Source: a virus. From it: DNA of 31,573 nt. Under the pieces are notes generated by a model. The model saw nothing but the letters and a program-made list of their open reading frames with translations. It did not search any database and was not told the DNA's origin. A program made the position numbers and the translations under genes. Shown in pieces: positions 11,276 to 21,709 of the stretch (position 1 is its first letter; every line of letters starts with the position of its first letter). The stretch spans positions 1 through 31,573 of the IMG/VR virus record IMGVR_UViG_3300007363_000067; one strand, 5' to 3'.

Positions 11276-11288
11276 GTATCTTTGACCT
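11276..11288 (+). promoter_or_regulatory. -7 box TATCTTTG for the early operon
   Basis: TATCTTTG (11277-11284) inside GTATCTTTGACCT, the same 13 bases as at 1581-1593. It lies 23 bases before the ATG at 11308. A run of A residues lies about 50 bases upstream (11221-11229), and no TTTG -33 box is evident. It is the only promoter candidate I see for the early cluster that runs at least to the SSB-like gene. Confidence 0.5.
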
Positions 11289-11307: not shown

Positions 11308-11544
11308 ATGAAAACCATCAAAACCCCCACCCACAACTTCATCACCTTGTTTGACAATTCTTTGTTTATCAACTTGACCAACGGCAAAATCACCGCCACC
11401 GGCTTCGGCGCACAATGGCTTCGCCTTGAGGAGTGCAGCATCAGCGACCTTGATGCTTCCGGATTGGCCGACATCAGCAGCCAAATCGTCCGTCAGCATG
11501 GTGCTTGTGTTGCAGCGAAATTCAACCAATTCTCCGGACACTAA
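11308..11544 (+). CDS. Small early protein, function unknown
   Basis: A 78-residue protein starting MKTIKTPTHNFITLFDNSLF. It has no membrane segment, no Cys/His cluster and no known motif. It is the first gene of the forward early operon, directly behind a -7 box and an A/C-rich leader (AACCACTAAACC) before the ATG. First genes of early operons in phages often act on the host, but this is only a positional remark. Confidence 0.6.
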   Translation: MKTIKTPTHNFITLFDNSLFINLTNGKITATGFGAQWLRLEECSISDLDASGLADISSQIVRQHGACVAAKFNQFSGH

Positions 11545-13491: not shown

Positions 13492-13897
13492 AAACCGAAG
13501 GAATCAAAAAGCCTTTGTCTTCGGAACTGCCCTTTGGTTCATATGCAAAGAGCCAACGCCAGCCAAGCGAATAAGCGCATTGTGTCAAGCGTTTAAAGTT
13601 TCAGCCACTCTGCACGATTACTTTGTCGCTGCTGGAGTTATTGAGAAGGTGGCCTACGGCAAATACAAGGCCGTCAATCAAATCAGCCCATCGTTTGAAA
13701 CTTGCGTTAATTGCTACGATGCACAAACCAAAAAAGTAAACGAATCAAAGGCAAAATCCAAACCAAGCCCCGAACTATTTACCGAAGAGCCTGCAAGTGT
13801 CCAAGAGTTGACCATTGAATCTCTTGCCCAGCAGGTATTCAAACTTACCGAAATCATGAATAAATTAGTAAACCAAACCCCAACCCAAAACCCATGA
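13472..13897 (+). CDS. Early hypothetical protein with possible winged-helix core
   Basis: A 141-residue protein. Residues 20-70 (ALWFICKEPTPAKRISALCQ, FKVSATLHDYFVAAGVIEKV) have the size and rhythm of a small winged helix like that of the gene before it. The C-terminal half is charged and ends in a helix (LAQQVFKLTEIMNKLVNQ). The gene overlaps its neighbour by 20 bases and ends over the second copy of the 22-bp repeat. Regulatory function is only a suggestion. Confidence 0.55.
   Translation: MKTPPTENRRNQKAFVFGTALWFICKEPTPAKRISALCQAFKVSATLHDYFVAAGVIEKVAYGKYKAVNQISPSFETCVNCYDAQTKKVNESKAKSKPSPELFTEEPASVQELTIESLAQQVFKLTEIMNKLVNQTPTQNP
13871..13892 (+). repeat. 22-bp direct repeat, copy 2 (pre-start leader)
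   Basis: Exact second copy of the repeat at 13450-13471. It lies one base before the ATG at 13894 and also encodes the C-terminal residues of the preceding gene (NQTPTQNP). Both copies are therefore at gene boundaries, in front of starts. Confidence 0.85.
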
Positions 13898-14136
13898 GCG
13901 ATTACCAACCCCAACCCAACACCTTCACCTTGTTCGCTAACGACAAAGGTGACAACCCCAAGCGTCCCGATTACAGGGGCGAAGTCATCCTCCCCGACGG
14001 GACCAAGATGCGGTTGTCCGCATGGTTCAAGGTAGGCAAAAGCGGCAAGCAGTTCCTAAGCGGCAAAGTCGAGCCGATGAACGAATCCCGTCCCGCCAAC
14101 GCTTTTGAGCCACAGGACAAAGATTTGCCGTTTTAG
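13894..14136 (+). CDS. Small protein with SSB-like C-terminal tail
   Basis: An 80-residue beta-rich protein (TFTLFANDKGDNPKRPDYRG, VILPDGTKMRLSAWFKVGKS), reminiscent of the DUF736 pattern. It ends QDKDLPF: an acidic stretch plus a terminal Pro-Phe, as in the SSB C-terminal tip that recruits replication and repair proteins. It lies between recombination-like genes and the replication initiator. An ssDNA-associated or replisome-recruiting role is a good guess, but the OB fold cannot be confirmed by eye. Confidence 0.6.
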   Translation: MSDYQPQPNTFTLFANDKGDNPKRPDYRGEVILPDGTKMRLSAWFKVGKSGKQFLSGKVEPMNESRPANAFEPQDKDLPF

Positions 14137-14138
14137 TG

Positions 14139-14146
14139 TAACTTTG
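14139..14146 (+). promoter_or_regulatory. -7 box TAACTTTG before the structured RNA
   Basis: An exact TAnnTTTG match beginning 2 bases after the TAG stop of the SSB-tail gene. No protein start follows for 125 bases; instead there are three hairpins and a terminator. No TTTG at the expected -33 distance is seen (a TTTG at 14124-14127 is too close). Confidence 0.45.
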
Positions 14147-14151
14147 CCCGA

Positions 14152-14267
14152 AGATTACATTTGCAATAAAGGCGGTTTGCTGAAGTAGAGGTCAGCAAGT
14201 CGTTTAGATAAAAGGGTTCCTCAACTAACCCTGCCCCGACTGCCTCTACCAGTTGGGGCTTTTTTTT
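14152..14267 (+). ncRNA. Candidate structured RNA with complementary (kissing) loops
   Basis: About 115 bases between a -7 box and a T8 run with three hairpins. H1: stem 14173-14183 with 14192-14202 (11 bp including two G-U pairs), loop AGTAGAGG. H2: AGGGTT 14213-14218 with AACCCT 14227-14232. H3: terminator stem 14233-14241 with 14251-14259, loop GCCTCTACC. Loop 1 GTAGAGG (14185-14191) is perfectly complementary to loop 3 CCTCTAC (14243-14249), allowing a 7-bp kissing interaction. It could be an independent small RNA, an attenuator controlling the replication gene at 14272, or both. No match to a known RNA family comes to mind. Confidence 0.5.
14233..14267 (+). terminator. Terminator directly before the replication initiator
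   Basis: GCCCCGACT (14233-14241) pairs with AGTTGGGGC (14251-14259) with one G-U pair and is followed by eight T residues (14260-14267). The ATG of the next gene comes 4 bases later, so the initiator must be expressed by read-through, antitermination, or a start not visible to me. Confidence 0.85.
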
Positions 14268-14271
14268 ACTC

Positions 14272-14976
14272 ATGAAGCAAATATCATGGTTTAAGTTCTG
14301 CCCAGCCGATTGGATGATGGGCCGAATATCACGCCAACCCGCCGAGGTGCAGGTGGCCTTCATCCGACTCTGCTGCGTCTATTGGAACGCAGAATGCGAG
14401 ATGTCAACCGACCACGCCGAACTGGAAGCCGATGGGCATCTTGAACGGTTACTCCAAACCCGCTTGGTAGAATCCAACGGGCCGTCTGTGTTCATCAAGT
14501 TCCTTGACATCCAATGGGAGGAAGCCAACCTGCATCGGACCAAGATGTCCCAAGCGGGCAAGCGGAGTGCTGAAAGGAGGTCAGCAAAGGTTGAAGAAAA
14601 TACAACTAAGGTTGAACCTATGTTGAACCTACCTTCAACCAATGTTGAACCTGTGTTCAATAGAGAAGAGAAGAGGAGAGAAGAGAAGAAGAGAGGAGAA
14701 GGTACTTGTGTCCTTTTTGACCAATTTTGGGCCTTGTACCCAAGGAAGACATCCAAGCAGGCCGCATCCAAAGCATTCGCCAAACTCAAGGACGAAGACC
14801 AGCAGAAGGCCATTGCAAACATCGGACGGCTCTACTCTCAAACTCCCATCCAGTTCGTACCCCACGCAGCGACCTACATCAACCAAGCCCGCTGGGAGGA
14901 CCAAGTTATACCCCGCAATGCTACCTTCAACCCACTAAACCAAACCGATGACGAACCCCTACCATCTTACCGCTGA
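14272..14976 (+). CDS. Replication initiator / helicase loader-like protein
   Basis: A 234-residue protein in two parts. The N-terminal part (residues 1-105: MKQISWFKFCPADWMMGRIS, VQVAFIRLCCVYWN) matches the winged-helix start of phage replisome organisers. The C-terminal part (FDQFWALYPRKTSKQAASKA, then PHAATYINQARWED, residues about 148-210) is the conserved module of the same proteins, thought to contact helicase. Between them is a linker (residues about 106-145) rich in Lys, Glu and Arg encoded by phased repeats and a homopurine tract, a probable origin. The gene overlaps the helicase by 29 bases. Its start sits 4 bases after a terminator. Confidence 0.75.
   Translation: MKQISWFKFCPADWMMGRISRQPAEVQVAFIRLCCVYWNAECEMSTDHAELEADGHLERLLQTRLVESNGPSVFIKFLDIQWEEANLHRTKMSQAGKRSAERRSAKVEENTTKVEPMLNLPSTNVEPVFNREEKRREEKKRGEGTCVLFDQFWALYPRKTSKQAASKAFAKLKDEDQQKAIANIGRLYSQTPIQFVPHAATYINQARWEDQVIPRNATFNPLNQTDDEPLPSYR
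14587..14702 (+). other. Candidate replication origin inside the initiator gene
   Basis: GTTGAA or its inverse recurs with helical phasing, centred near 14592, 14603 (one mismatch), 14613, 14624, 14636, 14646 and 14657, that is every 10-12 bases. ATGTTGAACCT is repeated exactly at 14620-14630 and 14642-14652, and AGGTTGAACCT at 14609-14619 is an odd palindrome. The repeats fall in different codon frames (VEP versus MLN), so they are not just a repeated peptide. A 41-base run of only A and G follows (14662-14702). The layout recalls the lambda origin within gene O. Confidence 0.5.
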
Positions 14977-16231
14977 ACGCAGGCTCCTGTCCTGCCTCAT
15001 GGACCAATTTATCAACCGAGCGGTCCTCCTCCTGCAAATTCCAGAGCGACTGTTTACAGGAAACCATGTTCTTGTTTACAGGGCCATTGAAGCCCTCCAC
15101 CGAGCGGAGCGACCCGTGGACCTGGTAGCCGTTCACAAATACCTCATCGACAACGGTCAAGCCCATGTCATCGCCGATTTCGTGGACATCTTGGACGGCA
15201 ATACCCTGACCTCCGACTGGAAGGTCTATGCCTCCGACCTCAACGAGGCTTGGAAGCAGCGAGAGGAACAACGCATCATGGACGAACTCGCTCACGACCG
15301 TGACATTCCCAAAGCCTTCGCCAGGTACCAATCTATGCAGGCGGTAGAAACCAACGCCTCGGAAACCACGGCCCACGAACTCGCAAAAGCGTTTCTGCTA
15401 AACATGAACGAGGTCCGTGAAGGAAGGCGCAAGGACTCCATCTTCCCAACTTACATATCCCCGATGGACCGAATGCTGACTGGATTCAAGCCCACCGAGT
15501 TCATTCTCTTGGGCGGCAGGCCCGCAATGGGCAAGACCCTCTTGGCCCTGCAAATCGCCATGAATCAAGCAATGGCCGACATCCCCGTCGTGTTCTTCAC
15601 GCTGGAAATGTCAGCGGAGCAACTGACCCAGCGGATGCTATCCAACCTCGCAACGATGGACGGGGCGGCATTCCTTAACCCGACCGAGCGAATCAGCACA
15701 AAAGATTTTATGGACCTTGGACAAAAAGCGGACCTCCTAAAGTCCAAGCCGCTCTATATCGTGGACTTGCACCAAGCCAACCTTGACCGCATTGAAGGGG
15801 AAATAGCGAAACTGAAAACCAAGTACGGAATTTGCGGATTCTACTTGGACTACCTCCAACTTGTAGAACCGACCAAAATAGATAAGGCCAAGCCCAAGAT
15901 TGAGCAAATGACCAACATCAGCAAGACCCTCAAAGCAATCTGCAAGCGGCAGAAGGTGTTCGGGGTCGTAGTTTCCTCCCTATCCCGTGCAACCGAGGGA
16001 CGCAGCGATCATCGCCCGATAATGTCCGACCTTCGGGAAACGGGTCAGTTGGAGTTTGACGCAGATAAAATCGGTTTTGTTTACCGCCCCTACGAACACG
16101 ACAAAAGTCAGCCAGCGGATTTGATGGAGGTCATCGTCCGCAAGAACCGCAATGGCTCGCTTGGAATTGCCGAGGTCCAATGCCACCTTCCCTACACCAA
16201 AGCCAACGAATACCCACCCCATTCCCTATGA
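14948..16231 (+). CDS. DnaB-type replicative helicase
   Basis: A 427-residue ring helicase that unwinds DNA at the replication fork. The N-terminal domain (residues 1-115, beginning AERRLLSCLM) is DnaB-like. The C-terminal RecA core has Walker A GGRPAMGKT (189-197), the catalytic Glu220 in FTLEMS, Walker B GFYLDYLQL (297-305) and the SSLSRATEGR and SDLRETGQLEFDAD blocks. The length is close to the family norm (about 450). The start overlaps the initiator gene by 29 bases and the end overlaps the methyltransferase by 4, fitting a tightly coupled replication operon. Confidence 0.9.
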   Translation: MTNPYHLTAERRLLSCLMDQFINRAVLLLQIPERLFTGNHVLVYRAIEALHRAERPVDLVAVHKYLIDNGQAHVIADFVDILDGNTLTSDWKVYASDLNEAWKQREEQRIMDELAHDRDIPKAFARYQSMQAVETNASETTAHELAKAFLLNMNEVREGRRKDSIFPTYISPMDRMLTGFKPTEFILLGGRPAMGKTLLALQIAMNQAMADIPVVFFTLEMSAEQLTQRMLSNLATMDGAAFLNPTERISTKDFMDLGQKADLLKSKPLYIVDLHQANLDRIEGEIAKLKTKYGICGFYLDYLQLVEPTKIDKAKPKIEQMTNISKTLKAICKRQKVFGVVVSSLSRATEGRSDHRPIMSDLRETGQLEFDADKIGFVYRPYEHDKSQPADLMEVIVRKNRNGSLGIAEVQCHLPYTKANEYPPHSL

Positions 16232-17753: not shown

Positions 17754-17900
17754 ATGACCACCACAAAAGAAAAAGAACTTGCTGCGTATGTAAATTATTT
17801 GACCGACAAACTCAAAATTTACAACATCTTTTTTCAGGACTTTGAAGCATGGAAAAAACGGCAATACCCAACCTTTTTTCCCCCACCCCCCAGCAAATGA
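17754..17900 (+). CDS. Tiny hypothetical protein
   Basis: A 48-residue Lys-rich helical protein (MTTTKEKELAAYVNYLTDKL) ending in a Pro-rich tail (FFPPPPSK). Its stop overlaps the ATG at 17897 (ATGA), the arrangement used throughout this genome, so I accept it. Accepting it also settles the start of the next gene. Confidence 0.5.
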   Translation: MTTTKEKELAAYVNYLTDKLKIYNIFFQDFEAWKKRQYPTFFPPPPSK

Positions 17901-18247
17901 CCCCAGCCCTCATCCACCACCTCGTTGATACCACGGCAGCCATCTTCGGCATAACGCCCGACCAGGTGCGGTCCCCGTCAAGGGAACGGCCCTGCGTTAT
18001 CGCTCGCAACATCGTGGCCGACATCGCCTACAACGAATACCTGTTCACCTTCATGGCCATCGGGAAGGAACTGAACCGCCACTACTCCACGATAATCATC
18101 AACTTGGAATCCTTCCACAACGACTGCAAGGCAAAGCCGCAACTGCGCTACCTACGGAGGCAAGTTTTCAACAATGCGCAGGAGTACTTGCAGACCGCTG
18201 AAGGGGCGTACATAACTGATACTCTGCAACTTCCGAGCGGAGAATAG
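17897..18247 (+). CDS. DnaA domain IV-like DNA-binding protein
   Basis: A 116-residue protein like the C-terminal DNA-binding domain of DnaA without the AAA+ part. The pattern is clear: DTTAAIFGITPDQVRSPSRE, IARNIVADIAYNEYLFTFMA, IGKELNRHYSTIIINLESF. The Arg in ARNIVA and the His-Tyr-Ser-Thr motif correspond to the parts of DnaA that touch the DnaA box. The start at 17897 is preferred over 17849 because of the ATGA overlap with the small gene. It may bind host DnaA boxes or a phage origin, or block host initiation; this is inference. Confidence 0.75.
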   Translation: MTPALIHHLVDTTAAIFGITPDQVRSPSRERPCVIARNIVADIAYNEYLFTFMAIGKELNRHYSTIIINLESFHNDCKAKPQLRYLRRQVFNNAQEYLQTAEGAYITDTLQLPSGE

Positions 18248-18270
18248 GGCCAAACCGCCTGCCTACCTTG

Positions 18271-18303
18271 GGGGGGTGCTTAACTGCATCCCCCTTTTTT
18301 TTT
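18271..18303 (+). terminator. Terminator at the end of the replication cluster
   Basis: A G-rich arm ending in TGC (18271-18279) pairs with GCATCCCCC (18286-18294) around a TTAACT loop and is followed by nine T residues (18295-18303). It separates the replication cluster from the sigma-like gene. Confidence 0.9.
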
Positions 18304-20360: not shown

Positions 20361-20541
20361 TTCCATCGTTGAGAGCGTGGTTCAGCAGTTCCACGACAGG
20401 GCTGCAAAGGGCGAGGCCAAGTACGGCACGACCATGGACCGCAACGACCTGACCACGATGCAATGGATTCAGCACTTGCAGGAGGAACTGATGGATGCGG
20501 TGGTCTACCTTGAAAAGGTAAAGCAGACGGGTGGAGTTTAA
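20353..20541 (+). CDS. MazG-like / phage nucleotide pyrophosphohydrolase-type protein
   Basis: A 62-residue protein with the pattern GEAKYGTTMDRND then WIQHLQEELMDAVVYLEKV. The EExxDA motif (EELMDA) is the metal-binding half site of MazG-type all-alpha NTP pyrophosphatases, here with one helix pair, so it would act as a dimer or be a relic. The GTG start at 20353 overlaps the terminase stop; the TTG at 20335 is an alternative. It overlaps the large terminase by 11 bases. Confidence 0.65.
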   Translation: MSDSIVESVVQQFHDRAAKGEAKYGTTMDRNDLTTMQWIQHLQEELMDAVVYLEKVKQTGGV

Positions 20542-21709
20542 GTACACCACGGCCATCAAGAAAATTCGGGCGATGACCGCTCGGAAGAAGGTGATACAGG
20601 GCGGAACAAGTGCATCCAAAACCTTCGGCATCCTTGCGGTCCTGATTGACCATGCGGCTCGTTATCCCAAGTCCGAGATTTCGGTCGTATCCGAATCCGT
20701 CCCTCACCTACGACGGGGGGCTATCAAGGATTTTGCGAAGATTATGCAATGGACCCACCGATGGGTTCCTGACAGGTGGAACAAGACGCTCCTGCAGTAC
20801 AACTTCGCCAATGGGTCCACGATTGAGTTCTTCTCCGCTGATTCGGAAGCCCGCCTCCGAGGGGCAAGGCGGCAAATCCTCTACATCAACGAGGCGAACA
20901 ATATTGACTTTGATTCCTACTACCAGTTGGCCATTCGTACAAGTCAGGAGATTTACATTGACTTCAACCCAACGCATGAGTTCTGGGCGCATACGGAAGT
21001 CCTTCCAGAAACGGATGCGGAGTTCCTCATCCTCACATACCAAGACAACGAGGCTCTTCCCGATACTATTCGCAACGATATTGAGTTAAACCGAACCAAA
21101 GCCGAAACGAGTGCCTATTGGGCCAACTGGTGGAAGGTGTACGGCCTCGGTCAGGTAGGAACGCTACAGGGTGCGATATACGGCGATTATACGATGGTTG
21201 AGGGTATTGACCCATCCACGATGAAGTTTGTCGCCTACGGGCTTGACTGGGGGTTCAGCAACGACCCCACGGCCTTGGTCGCAGTTTACCGAAGGGGCGA
21301 CGACTTGTTTGTCCACGAACTGCTCTACCACCGAGGGCTAACCAACTCCGACATCGCCACAAGGCTAAAGGAGTTCGGCATCACCCGTGCTTGGGAGATT
21401 GTGGCCGATTCGGCAGAACCGAAGTCCATTGAGGAAATTTACCGCTTGGGGTTCAACATCAAGCCCGCAAGCAAAGGCCCCGATTCGGTGAGGCAGGGCA
21501 TTGACATCGTTAAGCGATTCAACCTTCATGTGACCAAGGATTCCACCAACCTCATCAAAGAACTCCGCAGTTATACTTGGGCCACGGACAAGGACGGCAA
21601 GGACACGGGGGTCCCCATTGACTCCTACAACCACGCCTGCGATGCCCTGCGCTATGTGGCCCTCAACAAATTGGCGGTCAGTAATTCGGGGAAGTACTTG
21701 GTGGTGTAA
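20531..21709 (+). CDS. terL: Terminase large subunit
   Basis: A 392-residue packaging motor with an N-terminal ATPase and a C-terminal nuclease. Walker A is GGTSASKT (24-31), Walker B is ILYINEA (116-122), the coupling motif is YIDFNPT (142-148). The nuclease acids are Asp239 (YGLDWG), Asp293 (VADSAEP) and Asp371 (NHACDALRY). The start is GTG at 20531 and overlaps the MazG-like gene. The length is in the usual range. It is 20 kb from the portal on the map, unlike the usual terminase-portal order. Confidence 0.92.
   Translation: MEFKYTTAIKKIRAMTARKKVIQGGTSASKTFGILAVLIDHAARYPKSEISVVSESVPHLRRGAIKDFAKIMQWTHRWVPDRWNKTLLQYNFANGSTIEFFSADSEARLRGARRQILYINEANNIDFDSYYQLAIRTSQEIYIDFNPTHEFWAHTEVLPETDAEFLILTYQDNEALPDTIRNDIELNRTKAETSAYWANWWKVYGLGQVGTLQGAIYGDYTMVEGIDPSTMKFVAYGLDWGFSNDPTALVAVYRRGDDLFVHELLYHRGLTNSDIATRLKEFGITRAWEIVADSAEPKSIEEIYRLGFNIKPASKGPDSVRQGIDIVKRFNLHVTKDSTNLIKELRSYTWATDKDGKDTGVPIDSYNHACDALRYVALNKLAVSNSGKYLVV

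Follow-up and report, generated by a model that had tools for sequence, protein, structure and literature searches.

Matched kissing loops in a predicted phage RNA that ends in a terminator ahead of replication genes

Attenuators of plasmids of the pT181 and pIP501 types terminate transcription before the replication gene under RNA control. The CI RNA of phage P4 pairs with sites in the leader that encodes it, and transcription then ends before the phage's own replication genes are reached (PMC4825925). In plasmids, mutations in recognition loops create new incompatibility groups (PMC4485353). The ingredients of the locus described here (kissing loops, attenuators and specificity groups) are known, and what appears to be new is their combination: within a single phage RNA the loop of a terminator matches one further upstream, and the loop types are exchanged. 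No description of such an element was found in the open-access full-text literature. When the window and nine relatives of different types were compared with Rfam 15, no match was found above the gathering threshold, and the best sub-threshold match was to Spot_42 (24.4 bits versus 80). As nothing in Rfam passed either the gathering or the E-value threshold, assignment to a known RNA family was rejected.

The element was identified in IMG/VR virus record IMGVR_UViG_3300007363_000067, all 31,573 bases of which were analysed and are referred to as the window. Phage head, packaging and replication genes were recognised, and the window contains promoter boxes of the Bacteroidota type. The best cultured match of its portal protein is to flavobacterial phages, only Nonlabens phages P12024S/L, at 30% identity, and a search of annotated phage collections by DNA found no close record of the window phage. 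No integrase or repressor was found among those window genes that were scanned, which make up part of the gene set. A small protein encoded at 17849-18247 has a DnaA C-terminal (DNA-binding) domain (PF08299, E 1.2e-8), and is possibly a second replication-control protein.

The predicted RNA is approximately 117 nt long (about 14151-14267) and lies between an SSB-like gene and replication genes. The SSB-like gene (13894-14136, + strand; stop codon at 14134-14136) is of the OB-fold type, matches phrog_18154, single strand DNA binding protein (E 6.9e-7), and ends in DLPF; nearly all relatives have DMPF, DLPF or DFPF at this position. The downstream gene (14272-14976, + strand) encodes a phage replication-initiation/primosomal protein (phrog_9327, E 1.7e-21; phrog_270, E 1e-16), and the second gene behind the element (14948-16231, + strand) a DnaB-like replicative helicase (phrog_19, E 3.9e-73). 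Directly after the SSB stop is a -7 promoter box, TAACTTTG (14139-14146, + strand), which fits the Bacteroidota consensus TAHHTTTG. In Flavobacterium johnsoniae the G of this consensus is at -5 (PMC6847099), which places the RNA start near A14151 and gives the predicted length of about 117 nt. The box, noticed already in the first-pass annotation of the window, is conserved: 144 of 151 distinct relatives have it no further than 30 nt behind the end of the SSB gene, and the letters that vary are the two free positions of the consensus. Boxes of the TAHHTTTG type are no more frequent in the whole window than expected (9 found, 8.8 expected), so that the evidence is conservation at this site and not the mere presence of a box. 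An inverted repeat, TGTAA-N13-TTACA (14137-14159, + strand), surrounds the -7 box and is possibly an operator or a small hairpin. Most close relatives still have its TGTA...TACA, but diverged ones, L344 and L477 among them, do not, so the repeat is clade-specific and was rejected as a general part of the element. Elsewhere in the window, a TATCTTTG box at 11277-11284, 24 nt upstream of a gene starting at 11308, is likely to be the promoter of an early operon that ends in the SSB gene.

Folding of 14151-14267 yielded three hairpins, all on the + strand. Hairpin 1 (14170-14205) has a stem of 14 bp (14170-14183/14192-14205) and a loop, AGTAGAGG (14184-14191), that holds the kissing sequence GTAGAGG (14185-14191; L1). 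Hairpin 2 (14213-14232) has an AGGGTT/AACCCT stem (14213-14218/14227-14232) and a variable loop. The third hairpin (14233-14259) is GC-rich, has a stem of 10 bp (14233-14242/14250-14259), and is followed by a U8 run (14260-14267), the predicted RNA 3′ end, so that it has the features of an intrinsic terminator; the run ends 4 nt before the initiator ATG (14272). The terminator loop, CCTCTAC (14243-14249; L3), is complementary to L1 over 7 loop-loop pairs, which use the whole of it. The first-pass annotation had described the hairpins, loops and terminator, and every part was recovered where it had placed them; its positions for both stems were right, hairpin 1 being somewhat longer than it had stated and the terminator stem gaining one further G-C pair, which leaves the loop of 7 nt. 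The fold has a z-score of -3.46, was equalled by 1 of 200 shuffles, and is better on the + strand than on the - strand. The annotation had also called a chance 7-nt match between such loops rare; for two loops of this kind the chance is about 1e-4, and of the 312 pairs of window hairpins separated by less than 80 nt (134 on the + strand, 178 on the - strand) no other has one. Taken alone this would be modest evidence; what decides against chance is the covariation in relatives described below. A second strong intrinsic terminator (GGGGGGGTGC-TTAACT-GCATCCCCCT then T8) occupies an intergenic position at 18270-18303, and no kissing partner for it was found within 140 nt.

To follow the element in relatives, several hundred loci were gathered by viral scans, one of them designed for diverged forms, and were recognised via the upstream SSB-like gene; the counts of matched loops use distinct SSB 3′ ends only (n = 151). 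The loops were matched in 149 of 150 assessable relatives, 146 of them by script and three by eye (L337, TGTGAGG/CCTCACA; L345, ATTACGG/CCGTAAT; L364, TTCCGG/CCGGAA). In the remaining distinct relative, L405, which falls outside the 150, a gene is inserted ahead of the element and the sequence ends early. The sole clear mismatch is L271 (L1 ATAGCAG, L3 CTGCGAC), in which the -7 box is damaged too, suggesting either recombination or a chimeric assembly; one loop pair is mismatched in L307, a further record that was found by pattern. At least 16 loop types were distinguished, each with its complement in the terminator loop: GTAGAGG, ATTGCAG, TGCTGG, TTCCGG, ATAGCAG, ATTCAGG, ATTCCAG, TTGCGG, ATTACGG, ATTCCGG, GTCGCAG, TAACGG, AAGCGG, TGTGAGG, ATTGAGG and GGCAGC. 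The first-pass annotation had singled out loss of the paired loops from relatives that keep the genes as evidence against its proposal; this was checked, and the loops proved to be retained.

Covariation was measured in an alignment of 28 rows that included both mismatched records, L271 and L307. The loop-loop helix is 98.4% paired, compared with 75.8% in shuffles, and 11-67% when the register was slid. Two-sided changes occur in five of its seven pairs, and no pair has changed on just one side, giving 42 double-change cells (12.7 in shuffles) and a covariation score of 0.578 (0.179 in shuffles). For the three helices together, pairing is 95.6% and the double-change cells number 91, where 28.2 would be expected. 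The stem of hairpin 1 also covaries (6 of 7 counted pairs change on both sides). In the terminator stem 99.6% of cells are paired in the 28 relatives, and the variation includes 28 G-U and no A-C cells; the hairpin 1 stem taken alone is less clear, with 12 G-U and 9 A-C cells. Since terminator-stem variation uses G-U and never A-C, the functional molecule is the + strand RNA. A structure at the DNA level or on the minus strand was rejected for this reason and because the + strand folds better. Pairs of near-identical backbones swap both loops together (L013/L325, L257/L292 and L276/L268); between L013 and L325, matched changes are found in both loops while the intervening sequence is unchanged. 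The kissing contact and the undescribed phage RNA element, both put forward at first pass, are thus strongly supported by compensatory loop changes across at least 16 types, the latter also by the lack of an Rfam match.

Switching between loop types is almost unconstrained by the SSB tree. A tree of 134 SSB DNA sequences required at least 79 loop-type changes, compared with a mean of 92 and a least value of 87 for shuffled labels. Identical SSB DNA is found with different loop types in four cases, in which hairpin 1 is 57-86% identical, and conversely one loop type recurs on SSB genes down to about 65% DNA identity, the lower values in the comparison involving truncated or frameshifted SSB copies. 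As complementarity is kept through this switching, the element must be exchanged as a cassette or quickly re-matched. Recombination within the element is evident from L170 and L179, which have different loop types and a common extra 30-40 nt or so in the hairpin 2 loop that folds as a branched hairpin. Cognate loop pairs were calculated at -7.3 to -11.1 kcal/mol and most non-cognate pairs were weaker than -5.5, with cross-matching between a few related types. Such a pattern would be expected if the loops were specificity alleles that pass between phages as one unit.

The family is large and its members are lake phages, in which the element lies between the SSB gene and the downstream genes. 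The upstream neighbour is always an SSB-like gene, except that L286, L357, L375 and L405 have, in the first 200 nt behind the SSB stop, a small gene inserted between SSB and the element, MDTYIAKIWKLSQDEEGPV... in the last three and a similar one in L286. The stop of the inserted gene overlaps the -7 box and the element resumes at a TAACTTTG or TAAATTTG box, which marks the box as the left boundary of the cassette. The hairpin 2 stem is kept in relatives, GGTC/GACC taking its place in the diverged members L344, L337 and L506. The downstream gene usually encodes one of three initiator-like proteins (one with DUF6291) or a VapE-like primase-helicase (PF05272, PF08707), and in a few diverged members, including L504 and L506, a DUF4326 protein. 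The T-run is 3-10 nt from the next ATG in most records, and about 20-30 nt from the start in diverged members with the DUF4326-type gene. L492, L496 and L505 retain hairpins 1 and 2 with the terminator half replaced, L492 having a C-5 methylase-like gene next. More than one copy per genome was looked for; the element is present once in each. Presence in cellular genomes or prophages was looked for by a scan of 84,980 genomes, with a pattern that covers most loop types and is blind to 6-nt-loop types or a different hairpin 2. It gave four matches: one that was read (L256) is a chance match, and the others are from unrelated genomes, of Hydrothermus and two Caldilineaceae.

The best reading of the element, to which we assign a probability of roughly 0.4, is that it is a self-specific attenuator or small RNA gating the downstream replication genes in the manner of P4 CI RNA. 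The roughly 117 nt would be a gene for a small RNA, supplied with a -7 promoter and an intrinsic terminator of its own; a promoter-to-terminator RNA was proposed at first pass, and the conserved TAHHTTTG box and the U-run point to one. The terminator would double as a gate, passed by any transcript that extends into the replication genes immediately downstream. Loop 1 would be matched to the terminator loop as its recognition partner, and contact between the two, made by the finished RNA or by the nascent leader itself, would set the frequency of stopping before these genes. The RNA would also act in trans on genomes of the same type, as a count-sensing or superinfection signal to which genomes of other loop types would give no response. 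We infer transcription, the effect on read-through, and the action in trans and its sign from sequence features. The role as a gate is suggested by the anatomy, on the assumption that the hairpin with its U-run terminates: the terminator precedes the genes, and the 3-10 nt behind the T-run in most records leave no room there for another promoter. Shine-Dalgarno sequences are not used for translation in this phylum, in which structure around the start codon matters (PMC6847099), so the terminator hairpin might also make read-through RNA harder to translate. When a separate target in trans was sought in the same phage sequences, loop words showed no consistent type-specific enrichment, so that any such target would be the element itself.

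Several observations speak against attenuation. The gene downstream is not always a replication gene (DUF4326 in L504 and L506), the terminator half is gone from L492, L496 and L505, and a GC-rich stem of 10 bp followed by U8 should be an efficient terminator unaided. A switch controlling the initiator and helicase genes, as first proposed, is plausible as an interpretation; since the next gene varies, no single initiator goes with the RNA. It is possible, though less likely than not, that the loops are a self/non-self tag, whose matched alleles, at least 16 in number and exchanged as cassettes among freshwater Bacteroidota phages, would define RNA-based superinfection or copy-control groups, the RNA of each phage restraining or licensing the replication genes only of same-type genomes.

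A somewhat unlikely alternative is an attenuator or anti-terminator that works in cis only, in which contact within one nascent RNA delays or locks the terminator; the trigger might be SSB, the ribosome finishing the SSB gene, or temperature, and any complementary pair of loops would serve. Its location directly behind SSB and ahead of replication genes suits this arrangement, as does the fact that no other target was found. We had considered that hairpin 2 and the short linkers might make intramolecular contact impossible, and this was rejected by a geometry calculation, in which the contact required 70-90 Å and mostly 75-112 Å was available. A nearly taut intramolecular kissing fold is allowed by the linkers in 45 of 57 folded types; in the window's own type they are about 12 Å too short unless the stack bends or frays. 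By this calculation, most types can make the contact within one molecule, so that action in trans is not needed. A cis-only mechanism nevertheless leaves unexplained the fast turnover of types, with identical SSB genes carrying different ones, the types common to distant lineages, and the near absence of mismatched intermediates. Recognition between RNAs of the same genome type would better explain the strict matching, the many types and their free exchange, and we favour it on these grounds.

The element is unlikely to be a stable, compact phage sRNA with an intramolecular kiss that acts on a host target or protein. The terminator would then merely end the RNA, and the downstream genes would have their own read-through supply. 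The strong fold, the conservation of promoter box and terminator even where the flanks diverge, and the interchangeable downstream genes are in keeping with such a molecule, yet the exposed sequence likeliest to touch a target is, besides the stems, the most variable part. Self-assembly is very unlikely: loop 1 would pair with the terminator loop of the next molecule to form dimers or rings, and the types would bar mixed assemblies of co-infecting phages. Two complementary, non-palindromic loops in one RNA are indeed the arrangement of phi29 pRNA (PMC7357161), but the element is in the replication region, away from the packaging genes (terminase, 20531-21706), and contact within one molecule is also possible. 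Finally, an ordinary operon terminator with a chance loop match, although the hairpin alone is a good intrinsic terminator, has almost no probability and was rejected, being refuted by covariation far above controls and by complementary loops in 149 of 150 assessable relatives through at least 16 types.

Very strong support thus exists for a hitherto undescribed RNA family, placed at the entrance to the replication genes in an abundant group of phages that are uncultured. The recognition surface varies greatly and yet stays matched, an unusual combination for an RNA contained in a single transcript and one that points to selection for specificity. If the loops act between genomes, the element would be a phage RNA counterpart of plasmid incompatibility groups. 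With the loop types also comes a naturally occurring collection of kissing-loop pairs, about a dozen in number and largely orthogonal, that are coupled to a terminator.

The pT181 and pIP501 attenuators resemble the element in the RNA-controlled termination before a replication gene that we propose for it; they differ in that no countertranscript was found here and both loops are in the leader. The prohead RNA of phi29 likewise has two mutually complementary, non-palindromic loops in one phage RNA (PMC7357161), but it pairs over 4 bp and serves DNA packaging, whereas the element pairs over 6-8 bp, is in the replication region and ends in a terminator. With ColE1 RNA I/RNA II and other plasmid copy-control RNAs the element shares fully paired loops of 6-7 nt as the recognition surface, and loop changes that define specificity groups (PMC4485353). 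The partners in ColE1 are antisense transcripts of one DNA stretch, so that a single mutation changes both, whereas the two loops of the element are separate sites in one sense RNA and two changes are needed. Opposite-strand partners of the ColE1 kind were not found, as both loops are on the + strand and the wobble pairs of the stems fit this strand only. The comparison with RNA I in the first-pass annotation thus stands for loop chemistry and specificity types, but not for an antisense pair. Another likeness is to P4 CI RNA and its seqA-seqB-seqC leader, together with the C4 antisense RNAs of P1/P7-like phages, which are also encoded in a leader before phage replication genes. Complementary stretches within one transcript are present in both systems (here L1 and L3), and premature termination before the replication genes is the likeness that we propose. 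No sequence similarity was detected (no Rfam match), no lysogeny genes were recognised among the window genes examined, and no antisense RNA cut from a longer leader is evident. In the element, one of the targets is instead the terminator loop itself, and the RNA is short and has its own terminator.
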